Source: Geodermatophilus chilensis
GTDB taxonomy: Bacteria > Actinomycetota > Actinomycetes > Mycobacteriales > Geodermatophilaceae
Direction: 5' to 3'
Assembly (NCBI RefSeq): GCF_002802985.1
Contig: NZ_NVPT01000035.1
Span: forward strand, 1 to 34,811
Length of the DNA: 34,811 nucleotides
The notes under the pieces: model-generated
Database searches by the model: none
Seen by the model: only the letters and a program-made list of their open reading frames with translations
Told to the model about the DNA's origin: nothing
Shown: one piece after another, positions 5,045 to 31,939 of the stretch
How the letters are laid out: each line of letters begins with the position of its first letter
Numbering within the stretch: the stretch's first letter is position 1
Made by a program: the position numbers and the translations under genes

Positions 5045-6973
5045 AACGTGCGCCGCCGGAGATCCAACGGGGCCTGCCTGACCCTGGTGCTCGCCTTCCT
5101 GACCGGGCTCCTGGTGGTGGCGGCCCCGGCGACCGCCACCGCGGCCCCCGGCAACGTGCCGTGTGGTCCGGCCTACGACCGCATCCTGTACGGCACACCT
5201 GCGACCGCGCCCCGGACGGTCGCCCTCACGTTCGACGACGGCCCCAGCCCGAGGTGGACCCCGCAGCTGCTCGACATCCTGCGTCGCAACGGCGTCAAGG
5301 CCACATTCTACCTGGTCGGCGCCGAGGTCGAGAAGTACCCGGACCTCACCCGGCGCATCGCCGCCGAGGGGCACACCATCGGGAACCACTCCTGGGACCA
5401 CCCGCTGTTCGATCGGCTGTCCCGGCGTGACCAGGCGTGGCAGATGGACATGACCACGGACGTCATCCGCCGCACGACGGGGGTGACCCCGTGCTCGTTC
5501 CGTGCCCCGTACGGACAGGCCTCCGACGTCACGCTGCAGGAGGCCCGCGCCCGCGGCATGAGCGTGGCCAACTGGACGCACAACACCGCCGACTACACCA
5601 CGCCCGACGGCCTTTCGCCGCAGTTCCAGGACGAACTCGTCGGTCGGGCCGTCGGGCCGTGGCACGACCACGCCAACGTCCTGATGCACGACGGCTCCAA
5701 CGGCAACTACCGGCAGAACACGGTCGGCGCAGTCCAGCGGATCATCGACCACTACCGCCAGCACGGGTACTACTTCACCGACGTGACGGGGCGGTGGTCG
5801 GGGACGCAGATCTCCGACCACTACAACCGGATCAACGGTGAGTGGGCGCTGGGCGCTCCGGTCTCCGGCGAGATCCCGCTCCCGGGCAACCGGGGCCGGG
5901 CCACCGTCTACCAGGGCGGGGGCATCTACTGGAGCCCGTCCACGGGCGCCCACGCGCTGCGTGGCGCCATCTGGGACCGCTACCGGCAGATCGGGTACGA
6001 GACGAGCCACCTCGGGATGCCGGTCACGGACGAGGCCCTCTCGGCCGACCGTCGCGGCGTGTACCAGCACTTCCAGGGCGGCTCGATCTACTGGACGGCC
6101 ACGACGGGCGCCTGGGAGGTGTACGGGGGGATCCGGCAGCGCTGGGGTCAGCTCGGCTGGGAGTTCGGTCTGGGCTACCCGGTGACCGGCGAGCTCACCA
6201 GCCCGGACGGCATCGGGCGCTCCAGCGTGTTCGAGCGGGGGGCGATCTACTGGAGCCCGGCCACGGGAGCGCACGAGCTCCGTGGGGCGATCCGGGACCG
6301 CTGGAGCCAGCTCGGACACGAGTCCGGTCTGGGCTACCCCACGACCGACGAGCGGTTCACGGCCGACAAGAAGGGCGTGTACCAGGAGTACCAGCGAGGC
6401 GCGGTCTACTGGAGCCCGACGACCGGTGCGCGGGAGGTCCGTGGCGCGATCCGGCACCGATGGAACTCGGCCGGCCGGGTGACCGGTTCGCTCGGGTACC
6501 CGACGAGCAACGAGGTCCGGCTCTCGGGCGGCAAGGGCGTGCTGCAGGCCTACCAGAGGGGCTGGGTCTACTGGTCCCAGAGCTCCGGTGCGCGCATCGT
6601 GCGCCCGGGTGCGATCCGCGACACGTGGGCCTCGATGGGCTGGGAGAACGGATCGCTCGGCTACCCGGTGGGCGAGGAGTGGACGCTCCCGGACCGCAGG
6701 GGCCGGCAGCAGTCCTTCCAGCACGGTCACCTGTACTGGAGCGCCGCCACCGGCGTCCAGCCCGTGATGAACGGCCCGATCCGCGACAGGTGGGCCTCGC
6801 TCGGCTGGGAGAACGGCGTCCTGGGCTATCCCGCGGCGGGCGTCGTGACGACGAGCGCCGGGAGCTCGCAGGAGTTCCAGGGCGGCACCGTCGCATGGAC
6901 CGCGCAGGGCGGCCCCCAGGTCCTCCGGGGCAGCCTGCGGGACGCCTGGGTGGCCCTGCAGCGAGAGCGGTGA
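5036..6973 (+). CDS. Secreted polysaccharide deacetylase (NodB) with LGFP repeats, ended by premature TGA
   Basis: 645 residues. A basic N-terminus and hydrophobic segment ending ATATAAPG form a Sec signal peptide. The NodB deacetylase domain follows: TFDDGPSP (Asp67/68), the metal-binding HSWDH (about 118-122), FRAPYGQ, and LMHDGS near the end. Then come about seven LGFP-type repeats of 50-55 residues, each with a LGYP/LGxP core and an IYWSPxTGAxxLRGAI-type strand, known in cell-wall proteins that bind arabinogalactan or peptidoglycan. The probable role is remodelling of wall polysaccharide. Start is either GTG 5036 or GTG 5048 (SD GGGAGGA 5038-5044). The TGA at 6971-6973 falls inside a repeat where Gly is expected (W-E-N-G-V-LGYP becomes R-E-R-stop-A-LGYP); the same frame continues to 7510. 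Confidence 0.85.
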   Translation: MGGNVRRRRSNGACLTLVLAFLTGLLVVAAPATATAAPGNVPCGPAYDRILYGTPATAPRTVALTFDDGPSPRWTPQLLDILRRNGVKATFYLVGAEVEKYPDLTRRIAAEGHTIGNHSWDHPLFDRLSRRDQAWQMDMTTDVIRRTTGVTPCSFRAPYGQASDVTLQEARARGMSVANWTHNTADYTTPDGLSPQFQDELVGRAVGPWHDHANVLMHDGSNGNYRQNTVGAVQRIIDHYRQHGYYFTDVTGRWSGTQISDHYNRINGEWALGAPVSGEIPLPGNRGRATVYQGGGIYWSPSTGAHALRGAIWDRYRQIGYETSHLGMPVTDEALSADRRGVYQHFQGGSIYWTATTGAWEVYGGIRQRWGQLGWEFGLGYPVTGELTSPDGIGRSSVFERGAIYWSPATGAHELRGAIRDRWSQLGHESGLGYPTTDERFTADKKGVYQEYQRGAVYWSPTTGAREVRGAIRHRWNSAGRVTGSLGYPTSNEVRLSGGKGVLQAYQRGWVYWSQSSGARIVRPGAIRDTWASMGWENGSLGYPVGEEWTLPDRRGRQQSFQHGHLYWSAATGVQPVMNGPIRDRWASLGWENGVLGYPAAGVVTTSAGSSQEFQGGTVAWTAQGGPQVLRGSLRDAWVALQRER

Positions 6974-19766: not shown

Positions 19767-21161
19767 GTGCAGCTGCCCGACGGACTGGTCGCCGTCGTCA
19801 AGCGGGACTGCCCGACCTGCGTCCTGGTCGAACCGGTGCTGCGCGGGCTCGGTGCCGCGGTGTGGTGCCAGGACGACCCCACCTGGTTCGACCACGACGA
19901 CACCGACCTCGAGTTCTCCTACCGCCTCGGGATCGAGACGGTCCCGACCCTGCTGCGGGTGGCGGACGGCGCGGAGACGGCCCGGGCGGTCGGCTGGAGC
20001 CGCGAGCAGTGGGAGCTCCTGACCGGCGTGGCCGGCCTGGGGGAGGGGCTGCCGGAGCACCGGCCGGGCTGCGGGTCCCTGTCGGTCGACCCGTCGCAGG
20101 TCGACGCGCTCGAGGCGCGGTACGGGGACGGGCTGGCCAGCCGCCGGGTGGAGCTGGCCGACCTGGAGGACGAGCACGAGGCGCTGTTCGACCGTGGCTG
20201 GACCGACGGGCTGCCCGTCGTCCCGCCGACCCCGGAGCGGGTGCTGCGCATGCTGCGCGGCACGACCCGGGACCCCGGCGAGGTGGTCGCGGTCGTCCCG
20301 CCGGACCTCGTGCCGTGCACCGTCGAGAAGGTCGCGGTCAACGCGGTGATGGCCGGCTGCCTGCCCGAGCACCTGCCGGTCGTCCTGGCGGCGCTGGAGG
20401 CGGCGTCCGCGGAGGAGTTCGCGCTGCACGGGCTGCTGGCGACCACCTACTTCGCCGGCCCGGTCGTGGTCGTCAACGGGCCGGTCGCCGGACGGACCGG
20501 GATGAACAGCGGGGTCAACGTCCTCGGGCAGGGCAACCGCGCCAACGCCACGATCGGCCGGGCGCTGCAACTGGTCGTGCGCAACGTCGGTGGCGGCCGT
20601 CCCGGCGAGGTGGACCGGGCCACCCTCGGGAACCCGGGGAAGTACACCTTCTGCTTCGCCGAGCGGGAGCAGGACAGCCCGTTCGCCCCGCTGGCGGCCG
20701 ACCGTGGGGTGCCCGGGGACGCGGTGACCGTCTTCGCCGGGTCCGGGGTGCAGCCGGTGGTCGACCAGCTCAGCCGGGATCCGGAGTCGCTCGCCCGCAG
20801 CTTCGCGGTCTGCCTGCGCGTCAACGCGCACCCGAAGCTGCCGATGGCCTTCGACGCGATGCTCGTCGTCTCCCCGGAGCACGGCCGGGTCTTCCGGGAG
20901 GCGAGCTGGGACCGCGCCCGACTGCTGGCCGAGCTCGACGGGCTGCTGCGGATGCCGGCCGGCGAGCTGGTGCGGGGGGCCGGCGGCATGGCCGAGGGCC
21001 TGCCGCCCGGGACCGCCGCCGACGAGTTGCCGAAGTTCCGGCCCGGTGGCCTGCTGGTGATCCATGCCGGCGGCGACGCCGGGTTGTTCAGTGCGGTCGT
21101 CGGTGGCTGGGTCGCCGGCGAGACCGGGAGTGCTCCGGTGACACGGGAGGTACGGGCGTGA
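19767..21161 (+). CDS. Thioredoxin-fold / UGSC-partner fusion protein
   Basis: 464 residues. The first 95 or so form a thioredoxin-like domain with an active-site CPTC motif (VKRDCPTCVLVEPVL, Cys15/Cys18) and the cis-Pro region GIETVPTLLRV. From about residue 140 begins the large conserved domain that commonly neighbours UGSC proteins: WTDGLPVVPPTPERVLRML, TVEKVAVNAVMAGCLPEHLPVV, VVNGPVAGRTGMNSGVNVLGQGNRANATIGRA and LGNPGKYTFCFAEREQ. Its biochemical role is not established; fusion to a dithiol domain suggests it passes electrons to or from the selenoprotein. It probably starts at GTG 19767 as a leaderless message. Its stop overlaps the UGSC start (GTGA), so the two are co-translated. Confidence 0.8.
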   Translation: MQLPDGLVAVVKRDCPTCVLVEPVLRGLGAAVWCQDDPTWFDHDDTDLEFSYRLGIETVPTLLRVADGAETARAVGWSREQWELLTGVAGLGEGLPEHRPGCGSLSVDPSQVDALEARYGDGLASRRVELADLEDEHEALFDRGWTDGLPVVPPTPERVLRMLRGTTRDPGEVVAVVPPDLVPCTVEKVAVNAVMAGCLPEHLPVVLAALEAASAEEFALHGLLATTYFAGPVVVVNGPVAGRTGMNSGVNVLGQGNRANATIGRALQLVVRNVGGGRPGEVDRATLGNPGKYTFCFAEREQDSPFAPLAADRGVPGDAVTVFAGSGVQPVVDQLSRDPESLARSFAVCLRVNAHPKLPMAFDAMLVVSPEHGRVFREASWDRARLLAELDGLLRMPAGELVRGAGGMAEGLPPGTAADELPKFRPGGLLVIHAGGDAGLFSAVVGGWVAGETGSAPVTREVRA

Positions 21162-21685
21162 GGACGGTCCTCGATCCCACGGGTGAGCGCCGGGCGCCGG
21201 CCCGGGCGCTGCTGCCGCGCCCGGCGTCGCTGCGGGGCCGCACGGTGGGCCTGCTCGACATCAGCAAGGCGCGTGGCGACGTCGTCCTGGACCGGCTGGA
21301 GGAGCTGCTGCGCGAGGACGGCGTGACGGTGCGCCGCTACCGGAAGCCCACGTTCGCGCGGATCGCCCCGGTGGACCTGCGGCACGAGATCACCGAGCAG
21401 TGCGAGGTGGTGATCGAGGCGCTGGCCGACTAGGGCTCGTGCACGTCGTGCAGTGTGCACGACATCGCCGACCTGGAGCGCCGGGGCGTGGTGGGGGTCT
21501 TTCTCGCCAGTGCCGCCTTCGCCGACGCCGCCCGGGTGCAGGGCGCGGCGCTGGGCTTCCCGGCGCCCCACGTGCTGGTGCCGCACCCGGTGCAGGACCG
21601 CACGGACGCCGAGCTGCGTGCGGTCGCCGAGGAGGCCTACCCGGCGATGCTGGCGGCGCTGACCGCGCCGGCCTTGTCGGCCTGA
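21158..21685 (+). CDS. UGSC family selenoprotein (in-frame TAG read as selenocysteine)
   Basis: 175 residues if TAG at 21431-21433 is decoded. The 91 residues before it (SLRGRTVGLLDISKARGDVVLDRLEELL...EQCEVVIEALAD) and the 83 after it (GSCTSCSVHDIADLERRG...TDAELRAVAEEAYPAML) lie in one frame, and the TAG is immediately followed by GSC. The family is named for the motif U-G-S-C, with Sec or Cys at that very position. Here the codon is UAG, not the usual UGA. UAG-directed Sec is experimentally known in Geodermatophilus and Blastococcus. GTG 21158 has GGGAGG at 21145-21150. A hairpin starts three bases after the TAG. The exact reaction is unknown; a Sec-Cys redox centre is likely. A conventional caller would end the protein at residue 91. 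Confidence 0.92.
21437..21462 (+). promoter_or_regulatory. Candidate SECIS element in UGSC gene
   Basis: TCGTGCAC (21437-21444) pairs perfectly with GTGCACGA (21455-21462) over a ten-base loop GTCGTGCAGT that contains exposed G-U. It starts three bases after the Sec codon, so the apical loop is 12-21 bases downstream, as expected for a bacterial SECIS. The same bases encode conserved residues, so pairing could partly reflect coding. Confidence 0.6.
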
Positions 21686-28738: not shown

Positions 28739-29171
28739 CCCGCTGCTCGCCGAGCTGGCGGAGGCCCAGGACGCGGCACGGGCCGTACCCGAGAGCATGC
28801 GGGTGGCGGCCCGGGCGGCGTTCGCCTGGAGGACGGTGGACGAGGAGCTCGAGCTGCTCGTCCTCGCGCACGACTCGGCGCTCGCGGCGGGCCCGGCCGG
28901 GGTCCGCGACGTCCCCTCGGACGGCCCGCGCGCGCTGACCTTCCAGGGCGCCGCGCTGTCCGTGGAGATCGAGGTGGGTGCCGACGTCATGGGCCAGCTC
29001 GTCCCGCCGCAGCCCGGCCGGGTGACCCTGTCGGGCACGCGGGAGGTCCTGGCGGAGACGGCGGCCGACGCGCTGGGGTGCTTCCGGCTGCCGCGGCCGG
29101 AGGGCGGACCGGTCCGGTTGGTGTGCCGGACGGACGACGCCGCGGTCACCACCGGGTGGATCCGGCTGTAG
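28707..29171 (+). CDS. Conserved small protein between sigma factor and CHAT protease
   Basis: 154 residues, family without known function. The N-terminal third is helical (PLLAELAEAQDAARAVPESMRVAARAAFAWRTVDEELELL) and resembles small anti-sigma-like helices; the rest is beta-rich (LTFQGAALSVEIEV, MGQLVPPQPGRVTL, LGCFRLPRPEGGPVRLVC, VTTGWIRL). No membrane segment. A clear paralogue lies beyond the CHAT gene on the other strand. The start (GGGAGGGG upstream) lies inside the sigma gene, and the TAG stop overlaps the CHAT start as TAGTG, so all three proteins are made in a fixed ratio. I infer a regulator of the sigma factor or a substrate of the protease. Confidence 0.8.
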   Translation: MSANPRHNGDDPLLAELAEAQDAARAVPESMRVAARAAFAWRTVDEELELLVLAHDSALAAGPAGVRDVPSDGPRALTFQGAALSVEIEVGADVMGQLVPPQPGRVTLSGTREVLAETAADALGCFRLPRPEGGPVRLVCRTDDAAVTTGWIRL

Positions 29172-31939
29172 TGGCGACCCGGACCGGCCTCCCGACCGGC
29201 ACGGGCGTCCACGAGGAGGTGGGATCGGCGAGCCTGCACCAGGCGGAGGAGGCGCTGCGGCTGGCCGAGGCCGATCCGGGCCGGGCCGTGGCCGTGGCGG
29301 CCGAGGCGGTGCGGGCGGCCCGCTCCGCACGCGACCTGCACGCCGTGTCGGTCGCCGAACGGGCCCTCGGCATCGCGGCCCTGCACCAGGAGGACCTCGA
29401 CGCCGCGATGCGGCACCTGCGGGCGGCGATCGCCTCCGGCCGACGGGCGGGAGCGGCCGGCCTCGTCGCCGAGGCCCGGATCAGGTACGCCTTCGCGGTC
29501 AGCGTCCGGGGCCGGCCGGACCAGGCGCTGCGGGAGCTCGACGACGTCCTCACCTCCGCCGTCCCCGGGCACCAGCGGGCCCGTGCGACCGCCCAGCGCG
29601 GCGCCGTGCTGCACCAGCTCGGACGGCTCGACGAGGCGCTGGGCTGCTACCAGCGGGCCGTCCCCGGACTGCGCCGGGCCGGCGACCGGCTGTGGCTGCA
29701 GCGCGTCCTGTTCAACCGCGGCGTCCTGCACGGGTACCGGCACGCGTTCGCCGCGGCCGAGGCCGACCTGCGGGAGGCCGAGCGCCTGTGCCGGGCCCTC
29801 GGCCTCGAGCTCTCCCTCGGGTTCGTGCACCAGAACCTGGGCTGGGTGCGCTCCCTCCAGGGCGACGTCCCCGCGGCCCTGGCCCACCTGGACGAGGCCG
29901 AGCGCCGGTTCCGCAGCACGGGCGCCGGGCTGGGGGAGCTCCTGACCGACCGCAGCCAGCTGCTGCTGACCGCCTCCCTCGTGTCCGAGGCGCGCGAGGC
30001 CGCGCGGCAGGCCGTCGAGCTGTTCGCCGGCGACCGTCGGGGGCTGCTGCTGCCGGAGGTGCGCCTGCTGCTGGCCCAGGCCGCGTCCCGCGACGGGCAT
30101 CCCGAGCTGGCCGCGGAGCAGGCGCGCCGCGCCGTCCGGGAGTTCACCCGCCAGCAGCGCCCGGAGTGGGCGGTGCTGGCCCGGTTCGTGCGGGTGACCT
30201 CGGCCGACGGGACGTCCCGCACCGGCGTCCGGCAGCTGGTCGCACTCGCGGACGAGCTGTCGGCGGCGGGCTGGCCGGCCGCGTCCCTCGACGCCCGCCT
30301 GATGGCGGGGCGGGGGGCTCTCGAGCGTCGGCAGCACGGCGAGGCCCGCCGGCAGCTGGAGCTGGCCGGACGTCGACGCCGCCGGGGCCCGGCCCTGCTG
30401 CGCGCGCGGGCCTGGTACGCCCAGGCGCTGCTGCGCCACGCCGACGGTGACCGGCGCGGCGCCCGCGTCGCCGTCCGGACCGGGCTCACCGTGCTCGACG
30501 AGTACCGCGCGGCGCTCGGAGCGACCGACCTGCGCGCCCGTGCCGCCGCCCACCGCACGGACCTGGCGGAGCTGGGCCTGACCATGGCCCTCGAGGACGG
30601 CCGGCCCGACGTCGTCCTCGCGTGGGAGGAGGAGCGCCGCGCCAGTCACCTGCTGCTGCCGTCGGTCCGGCCGCCCGACGACCCGGCGCTCGCCCAGGCC
30701 CTCGGGGAGCTGCGGCTGACCGCCGGCGAGATCGACCAGGCCCGCGGGGCCGGCCCCGTGCCCGCGCACCTGCTGCGCCGGCAGCTCGAGCTGGAGCGGG
30801 CGATCCGGGACCACTGCCGCCGGCTGGGCGGGGGCCCGGCCGGCCCGGCGCGCAGCGCCCCGGCCCTGGGGTCCCTCCCGTCGGCGCTGGGGGACGCGGC
30901 GCTCGTCGAGTTCTTCACGCGGCGGTCGGCGTTGCACGCGGTCAGCCAGGTGGACGGGCGCACCCGCGTGCACGACCTGGGCGGGCTCGGCGAGGTGGAG
31001 GAGCTGCTCGACCGCGTGCCCTTCGCGCTGCACCGGCTGGCCCGGCAGCGCGGGGACGGGCCGAGCTGCGCCGCGGCCCTGTCCCTGCTCCGGCACACCG
31101 CCGAGCAGCTGGACGCCCGGATCCTCGGGCCACTGGGGGCGGTCCTGGCCGACCGGCCCCTCGTCGTGGTCCCCACCGGGCCGCTCCAGTCGCTCCCGTG
31201 GCAGGTCCTGCCCTCCTGCCGGCAGCGCCCGGTCACGGTGGCGCCGTCGGCCGCGCTGTGGCTGGAGGCCCACCGGCGGACCGGTACGGGGACGGCCACG
31301 GTCGTCGCGGCCGGCCCCGGCCTCCCCGGGGCCCGGGCGGAGGCCGAGACGGTCGCCCGGCTGCACGGGTCCCCGGCCCTGGTCGGGCCCGCGGCCACCG
31401 CCGGCGCCGTCGCGCGGTCGCTGCACGGCGCGCGGCTGGCCCACCTGGCCGCGCACGGGCGGGTCCACCCGCACAACCCGCTGTTCTCCTCGATCGGGCT
31501 CGCGGACGGCCCACTGACCGTCTACGACCTGGAGCGCCTGGGACAGGGGCCGGGGACGGTGGTGCTCTCCGCCTGCAACAGCGGGCGCTCCGTCGTCTGC
31601 GCCGGCGACGAGCTGCTGGGACTCACCGCCGCCTTCCTGTCCCTGGGCACGCGGCAGGTGGTCGCCTCGGTGATCCCGGTGCCCGACGCGGAGACCGCGC
31701 CGCTGATGACCGCCTTCCACGAGCTCCTGGCGGCCGGCCGGTCGGTCGCCGCGGCGCTGGCGGAGGCGCAGGCCCGCACGTCGGCAACCGAGCCCGCCGT
31801 CGTCGCGGCCGCGGCCGGCTTCGTCTGCGTCGGCGCCGACGCGCCCCTGACCCCGGTGGCGGACGGCGGGCCCGCGGCGGGCCCGGCGGTGGGGACGGCC
31901 CCCGCGCTCACGCCGGCCCGACCCGGACCCAGACGGTGA
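29171..31939 (+). CDS. TPR-CHAT caspase-like protease
   Basis: 922 residues. Residues 20-480 are a tetratricopeptide superhelix with repeated A-x-G-x-L/A...A-x-x-Y/F units (for example GRLDEALGCYQRAVPGLRRAGD, GDVPAALAHLDEAERRFRSTG). After a linker, residues 600-890 form a CHAT domain: VVVPTGPLQSLPWQVLP, AHLAAHGRVHPHNPLFSSIGLADG with catalytic His762, and TVVLSACNSGRS with catalytic Cys802, then FLSLGTRQVVASVIPVPD. CHAT proteins are caspase/separase-like Cys proteases in conflict and signalling systems; the TPR part normally senses or binds a partner. GTG 29171 follows the previous stop directly. The end overlaps the converging gene by 32 bases. Both catalytic residues are intact. Confidence 0.92.
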   Translation: MATRTGLPTGTGVHEEVGSASLHQAEEALRLAEADPGRAVAVAAEAVRAARSARDLHAVSVAERALGIAALHQEDLDAAMRHLRAAIASGRRAGAAGLVAEARIRYAFAVSVRGRPDQALRELDDVLTSAVPGHQRARATAQRGAVLHQLGRLDEALGCYQRAVPGLRRAGDRLWLQRVLFNRGVLHGYRHAFAAAEADLREAERLCRALGLELSLGFVHQNLGWVRSLQGDVPAALAHLDEAERRFRSTGAGLGELLTDRSQLLLTASLVSEAREAARQAVELFAGDRRGLLLPEVRLLLAQAASRDGHPELAAEQARRAVREFTRQQRPEWAVLARFVRVTSADGTSRTGVRQLVALADELSAAGWPAASLDARLMAGRGALERRQHGEARRQLELAGRRRRRGPALLRARAWYAQALLRHADGDRRGARVAVRTGLTVLDEYRAALGATDLRARAAAHRTDLAELGLTMALEDGRPDVVLAWEEERRASHLLLPSVRPPDDPALAQALGELRLTAGEIDQARGAGPVPAHLLRRQLELERAIRDHCRRLGGGPAGPARSAPALGSLPSALGDAALVEFFTRRSALHAVSQVDGRTRVHDLGGLGEVEELLDRVPFALHRLARQRGDGPSCAAALSLLRHTAEQLDARILGPLGAVLADRPLVVVPTGPLQSLPWQVLPSCRQRPVTVAPSAALWLEAHRRTGTGTATVVAAGPGLPGARAEAETVARLHGSPALVGPAATAGAVARSLHGARLAHLAAHGRVHPHNPLFSSIGLADGPLTVYDLERLGQGPGTVVLSACNSGRSVVCAGDELLGLTAAFLSLGTRQVVASVIPVPDAETAPLMTAFHELLAAGRSVAAALAEAQARTSATEPAVVAAAAGFVCVGADAPLTPVADGGPAAGPAVGTAPALTPARPGPRR

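Follow-up and report, generated by a model that had tools for sequence, protein, structure and literature searches.

A UGSC-family gene of Geodermatophilus chilensis with UAG at its selenocysteine position, very probably read by a CUA tRNASec of the same genome

The UGSC gene and its in-frame TAG

The window analyzed here, a stretch of 34,811 nucleotides, is the entire contig C279 of a 5.51-Mb assembly (G000; 374 contigs, 99.98% complete). On its forward strand it harbors a UGSC-family (seleno)protein gene (21158..21685, +) that starts with GTG, has a TAG as codon 92 and would encode 175 residues if read through. Translation gives 91 residues, the single TAG and 83 residues, just as the initial annotation had described the frame, and then a terminal TGA. 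That annotation also placed the TAG (21431..21433, +) at the U, that is, at the selenocysteine (Sec) position, of the U-G-S-C motif. The codons directly 3′ of it do encode the Gly-Ser-Cys that completes the motif (21434..21442, +), both in the translation and in an alignment of 42 sequences. The two sides of the TAG had further been described as co-linear family sequence, and the Pfam UGSC profile PF24696 matches residues 3-169 of the read-through product (E 2.9e-42, 145.1 bits versus a cut-off of 25); the product also scores 142.7 bits against NF041046 (cut-off 125). The family is recognized by a Sec or Cys codon followed by Gly-Ser-Cys, and TAG-GSC is found at the aligned position. The G+C content of the three codon phases is 0.80/0.48/0.97 before the TAG and 0.80/0.55/0.95 after it, a similarity which argues that coding continues in the same frame past the TAG.

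Directly upstream lies a partner gene (19767..21161, +; 464 residues) that shares 4 bases (GTGA) with the start of the UGSC gene. Elsewhere in the window, a frame of 1066 residues is found at 28739-31939 (+), the end of which weakly matches the TPR-CHAT protein Csx29 (E 2.8e-5, far below cut-off).

A SECIS-like hairpin behind the codon

Counted from the first base of the TAG, a SECIS-like hairpin (21445..21463, +) begins 14 bases downstream and consists of an 8-bp stem, GTCGTGCA/TGCACGAC, with the loop GTG. It is conservation that identifies this hairpin. In a scan of named genomes, the best 80 of 281 relatives were kept as orthologues, and with the window included, each of the 81 sequences (28 with TAG and 53 with TGA) forms all eight pairs. 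Codons +4 to +11, which span the hairpin, have a mean synonymous entropy of 0.20 bits, compared with 1.30 for 53 other conserved codons, none of which falls under 0.3. The Ser codon at +7, located at the hairpin loop (21452..21454, +), is AGT in 81/81 sequences, whereas AGT accounts for 1 of 163 Ser codons elsewhere in the 28 TAG sequences. Among family loci with Ser at +7, AGT is used in 36/36 of the TAG type versus 0/5 of the Cys type.

With up to 3 mismatches allowed, the window contains a single copy of the 23-base hairpin motif, and 100 shuffles contain none. Paralogues keep the stem in other letters (GTCGTGGA/TCCACGAC), and the loop in formate dehydrogenase (FDH) genes is GGTCT. Folding energy by itself does not mark the hairpin and is not distinctive: z is -1.69 in the window, and the mean z from synonymous shuffles is -0.70 over 36 TAG loci, compared with -0.56 over 14 Cys loci.

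Selenocysteine machinery of the same genome

The initial annotation had pointed to a tRNASec with a CUA anticodon, together with selA, selB and selD, as what the rest of the genome ought to contain. All four are present, and on one contig (C345). The tRNASec gene (C345:9909-10000, -) matches RF01852 along its entire length (65.1 bits) and has the anticodon CUA (cta), while the selA, selB and selD genes score 415.1, 278 and 385.7 bits, respectively, against their profiles, each over the cut-off and without an internal stop. The genome yields seven other RF01852 matches, which are ordinary tRNAs for Ser (three), Gly, Leu, Thr and Met; no UCA tRNASec is found among the eight. UAG stands at the Sec site of three genes in this genome, namely the UGSC gene of the window, a second UGSC gene (L161; C90:27925-28425, TAG at U) and the gene for an FDH alpha subunit (L358, on C235; NQARI*HSATV).

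Since a matching CUA tRNASec is found in the same genome, insertion of selenocysteine at UAG is likely, and we consider it very probable that the TAG at 21431-21433 is read in this way by the genome's own tRNA. SelA and SelD would charge the tRNASec with Sec, and SelB would bring Sec-tRNASec(CUA) to the ribosome upon binding the hairpin just behind the UAG. The competitor for this codon would be release factor 1, not release factor 2.

ARAGORN, which reads the anticodon as CUA, labels the gene "tRNA-Pyl," which would favor pyrrolysine as the residue inserted at UAG. This assignment is exceedingly improbable given the end-to-end fit to the tRNASec covariance model, the long variable arm, the location of the gene next to selA, selB and selD, and the UGA or Cys codons that homologues carry at the site. 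The variable arm of tRNAPyl is three nucleotides long according to the excerpted text of PMC7609411, and on this point a tRNAPyl identity of the CUA tRNA was rejected.

Leaky readthrough of UAG is a general possibility, in which case a near-cognate tRNA would insert a standard residue. Such ordinary amber readthrough is very unlikely here, however, as the genome encodes a cognate CUA tRNASec, the hairpin is conserved and other sequences have UGA or Cys at the site.

The codon at the Sec site in relatives

The alignment of homologues around the TAG that the initial annotation had called for reveals TGA, TAG or a Cys codon at this position. Among the best 80 of 281 relatives, the aligned codon is TAG in 27, TGA in 53 and a sense codon in none, and all 27 of these TAG-bearing orthologues belong to Geodermatophilus or Blastococcus. 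The initial annotation had found the gene content to fit the family of these genera, and genomes from the genus group of the window are indeed identical with named Geodermatophilus assemblies, their tRNASec genes having equal coordinates. A survey of 112 genomes of the family yielded 95 UGSC matches, distributed over 54 genomes, of which 72 have exactly one internal TAG and 23 have no stop; an internal TGA or TAA is found in 0 of the 95. The codon at U was read in 50 of these 95 loci, in addition to the window, and is TAG in 36 and TGC or TGT in 14.

The sequence records at first sight suit a different explanation, in which the TAG is a true stop owing to a broken gene or a miscalled base, and the two halves represent a pseudogene or two small proteins. 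Among the best 120 homologues in the records, 91 stop directly ahead of the Sec codon, at residue 91, as had been anticipated from standard annotation, and the remaining 29 span it. Standard gene calling would give this result either way, and UGSC genes in sequence records are currently cut at the Sec codon. Against a true stop, the same TAG recurs in 27/80 orthologues (best 80 of 281) and 36/50 family loci and is therefore neither due to chance nor to a miscall in a single genome. Moreover, the coding signature is equal on both sides of the TAG, and the hairpin is constrained at the nucleotide level. A broken or miscalled gene is thus very improbable, and the TAG is best regarded as a Sec codon. 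One recorded homologue (P0002) carries Trp in place of U, as if a gene caller had translated a UGA with a code in which TGA is Trp.

In a protein tree of the 80 loci plus the window (81 sequences), the TAG label needs two changes, with one TGA metagenome row (L231) falling inside the TAG clade on weakly supported branches. Because the placement of this row is weak, the tree could still accommodate a single origin of the TAG form.

The FDH genes of the family also differ in their Sec codon. TGA is found at the Sec site in three genomes of genus g7 (G071, G073 and G074), a genus with UCA tRNASec. In the other genera, at least 45 FDH matches with a stop show one TAG, those of G097 and G098 among them, and the TAG was confirmed at the Sec site in nine genomes. 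The one exception among genomes with a CUA tRNASec is an FDH match in G079, which contains a TGA; this gene seems to be interrupted, and inspection of the match did not find the Sec-site motif.

The tRNASec anticodon in relatives

Both the family genomes and the named genomes were searched for tRNASec at a threshold of E 1e-9. In the family, a total of 110 tRNASec genes came from 108 of the 112 genomes, and all 110 anticodons were read, 102 as CUA and 8 as UCA. Counted by genome, 100 of the 112 have CUA only, 7 have UCA only, 1 (G058) has both and 4 have no match. The UCA-only genomes (G066, G068-G070 and G072-G074) are distributed over the genera g5, g6 and g7. Under the grouping used here, the dividing line of the UGA/UAG exchange runs within the family. 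No tRNASec match was obtained in G071 (genus g7; TGA in its FDH gene) or in G097 and G098 (genus g9; TAG in theirs). The fragmented genome G037 harbors two CUA tRNASec genes (G037:C168 and G037:C25).

Of the genomes of the best 80 orthologues, 28 were tested for tRNASec, 24 with TGA and 4 with TAG in the UGSC gene, and the tRNA was found in 22. These are 18 of the 24 TGA genomes, all with UCA, and 4 of the 4 TAG genomes, all of which carry a CUA tRNASec and one of which has UCA in addition. In the other 6 of 24 TGA genomes, for which genome quality is not given, no tRNASec was found at E 1e-9.

Taken with the codon counts, this distribution suggests that UGA was exchanged for UAG together with the anticodon of the tRNA and that the hairpin was left as it was. 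We infer that the target of SelB stayed unchanged when the codon changed. The counts separate the would-be target of SelB from the spelling of the codon: codon and anticodon changed together, and the hairpin did not.

The UGSC protein and its upstream partner

In an excerpt of PMC2398784, the UGSC-containing protein is described as a major selenoprotein family in a marine data set, with a UxxC motif and without a known domain. The structure model of the window's UGSC protein (pLDDT 91.9) is an alpha/beta domain in which a helix from residue 93 begins directly after U92; none of its fold matches names a function. The N-terminal part of the upstream partner is modeled as a thioredoxin-like fold with CPTC, and its large C-terminal part is conserved but without a family, with weak profile matches. 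Of 93 loci examined, 87 have the partner gene upstream of UGSC, other phyla included; in 4 of the 6 loci that lack it, fewer than 500 bases precede UGSC.

Because a partner with a thioredoxin fold and CPTC is encoded upstream, we take the UGSC protein to be a putative selenol oxidoreductase of the UxxC kind that would be served by this partner. Located where the helix begins, the selenol of residue 92 would form a UxxC redox pair with Cys95, and the partner is predicted to reduce the UGSC protein. A peroxidase-related AhpD-like gene without a stop is found about 0.2 kb from UGSC in three g2 genomes (G019:C152:12305, G020:C47:48840 and G005:C16:76126).

Relation to known UAG-decoding systems

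UAG-programmed selenoprotein synthesis in Geodermatophilus and Blastococcus was reportedly confirmed by labelling or mass spectrometry in the 2016 work of Mukai in Angew Chem. The initial annotation regarded recoding of this kind as established for the two genera, and the literature bears this out: recoding of UAG to Sec in Geodermatophilaceae, with UGSC proteins among the substrates, is already in print in the excerpted text of PMC5330540. The same text lists three Geodermatophilaceae genomes with a CUA tRNASec and attributes the FDH and UGSC-motif selenoproteins to Mukai 2016. An excerpt of PMC10778597 likewise reports the recoding of UAG to Sec in some species.

The window case shares with this Geodermatophilus/Blastococcus system, as presented in the excerpts of PMC5330540 and PMC10778597, the CUA tRNASec, the UAG in FDH and UGSC genes and the bacterial family, with no difference in kind. 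With UAG-Sec in UGSC and FDH already in print for Geodermatophilaceae, it is therefore not new in kind but a further instance of a known system, the code variant having been reported for the family. The AhpC selenoprotein of Blastococcus saxobsidens, which in the excerpt of PMC5330540 has a Sec-TAG with a bSECIS behind the codon, has in common with the window gene the UAG Sec codon, the bacterial family and the position of the SECIS element but belongs to another protein family. Conversely, the UGSC family of the UGA type (the excerpt of PMC2398784; NF041046, PF24696) represents the same protein family with the same motif and hairpin, yet its codon is UGA where that of the window is UAG. What is added here is the genome of the window, the counts of anticodons and codons, a hairpin that is unchanged across UAG and UGA, and a genome with two tRNAs. 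The window gene contributes a well-supported case to a bacterial family that spells selenocysteine as UAG.

Geodermatophilus marinus, a candidate genome with two Sec codons

The genome with both anticodons (G058) is that of Geodermatophilus sp. LHW52908, now Geodermatophilus marinus, which also holds the locus L234. In addition to the resident CUA tRNASec it has a second tRNASec gene with the anticodon UCA (L049:1173-1263, -, on G058:C17; 81.8 bits). The UCA gene is 76% identical to the resident CUA gene and at most 84% identical to the tRNASec of any other genome in the set. Around it, about 5 kb have a G+C content of 59-65%, the rest of the 20 kb read being at 69-77%, and this island is flanked by a piece of a DDE transposase (L049:3-545) and an IS110 transposase (6089-6865), with further transposase genes behind.

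An AhpD-like gene (L049:1579-2157, +; TIGR01926, 97.6 bits, cut-off 81.8) is located about 0.3 kb from the UCA tRNASec gene on the opposite strand. Its frame is interrupted by a single TGA at residue 98, where CFYU has its second Cys position, and the hairpin ACGCAGA-GTT-TCTGCGT follows behind the codon. Among the best 120 homologues of this gene in the records, 59 span the site, 58 stop at residue 97 and 3 start at residue 99. No AhpD-like gene with a stop was found in the other genomes when the 112 of the family were searched, the next matches being at most 40% identical and without stops. The same genome has TAG in its UGSC gene (L147) and in FDH, and one selB over cut-off.

Judging from these sequences, the balance tips toward G. 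marinus decoding Sec by two stop codons with a single SelB: UAG in the resident UGSC and FDH genes, and UGA in an imported AhpD-like gene that would move on the transposase-flanked island together with its own tRNASec(UCA). Genomes with two tRNASec genes are known from the excerpted text of PMC5330540; among the open papers listed in literature searches, no title or abstract opening reports two Sec codons in one genome. If this proposal is true, selenoproteins would spread as cassettes that set their own codon, and the UGA-to-UAG exchange in the family of the window could pass via two-codon states. Two Sec tRNAs with matching UAG and UGA genes would also allow the change from one Sec codon to another to be tested directly in a living strain.
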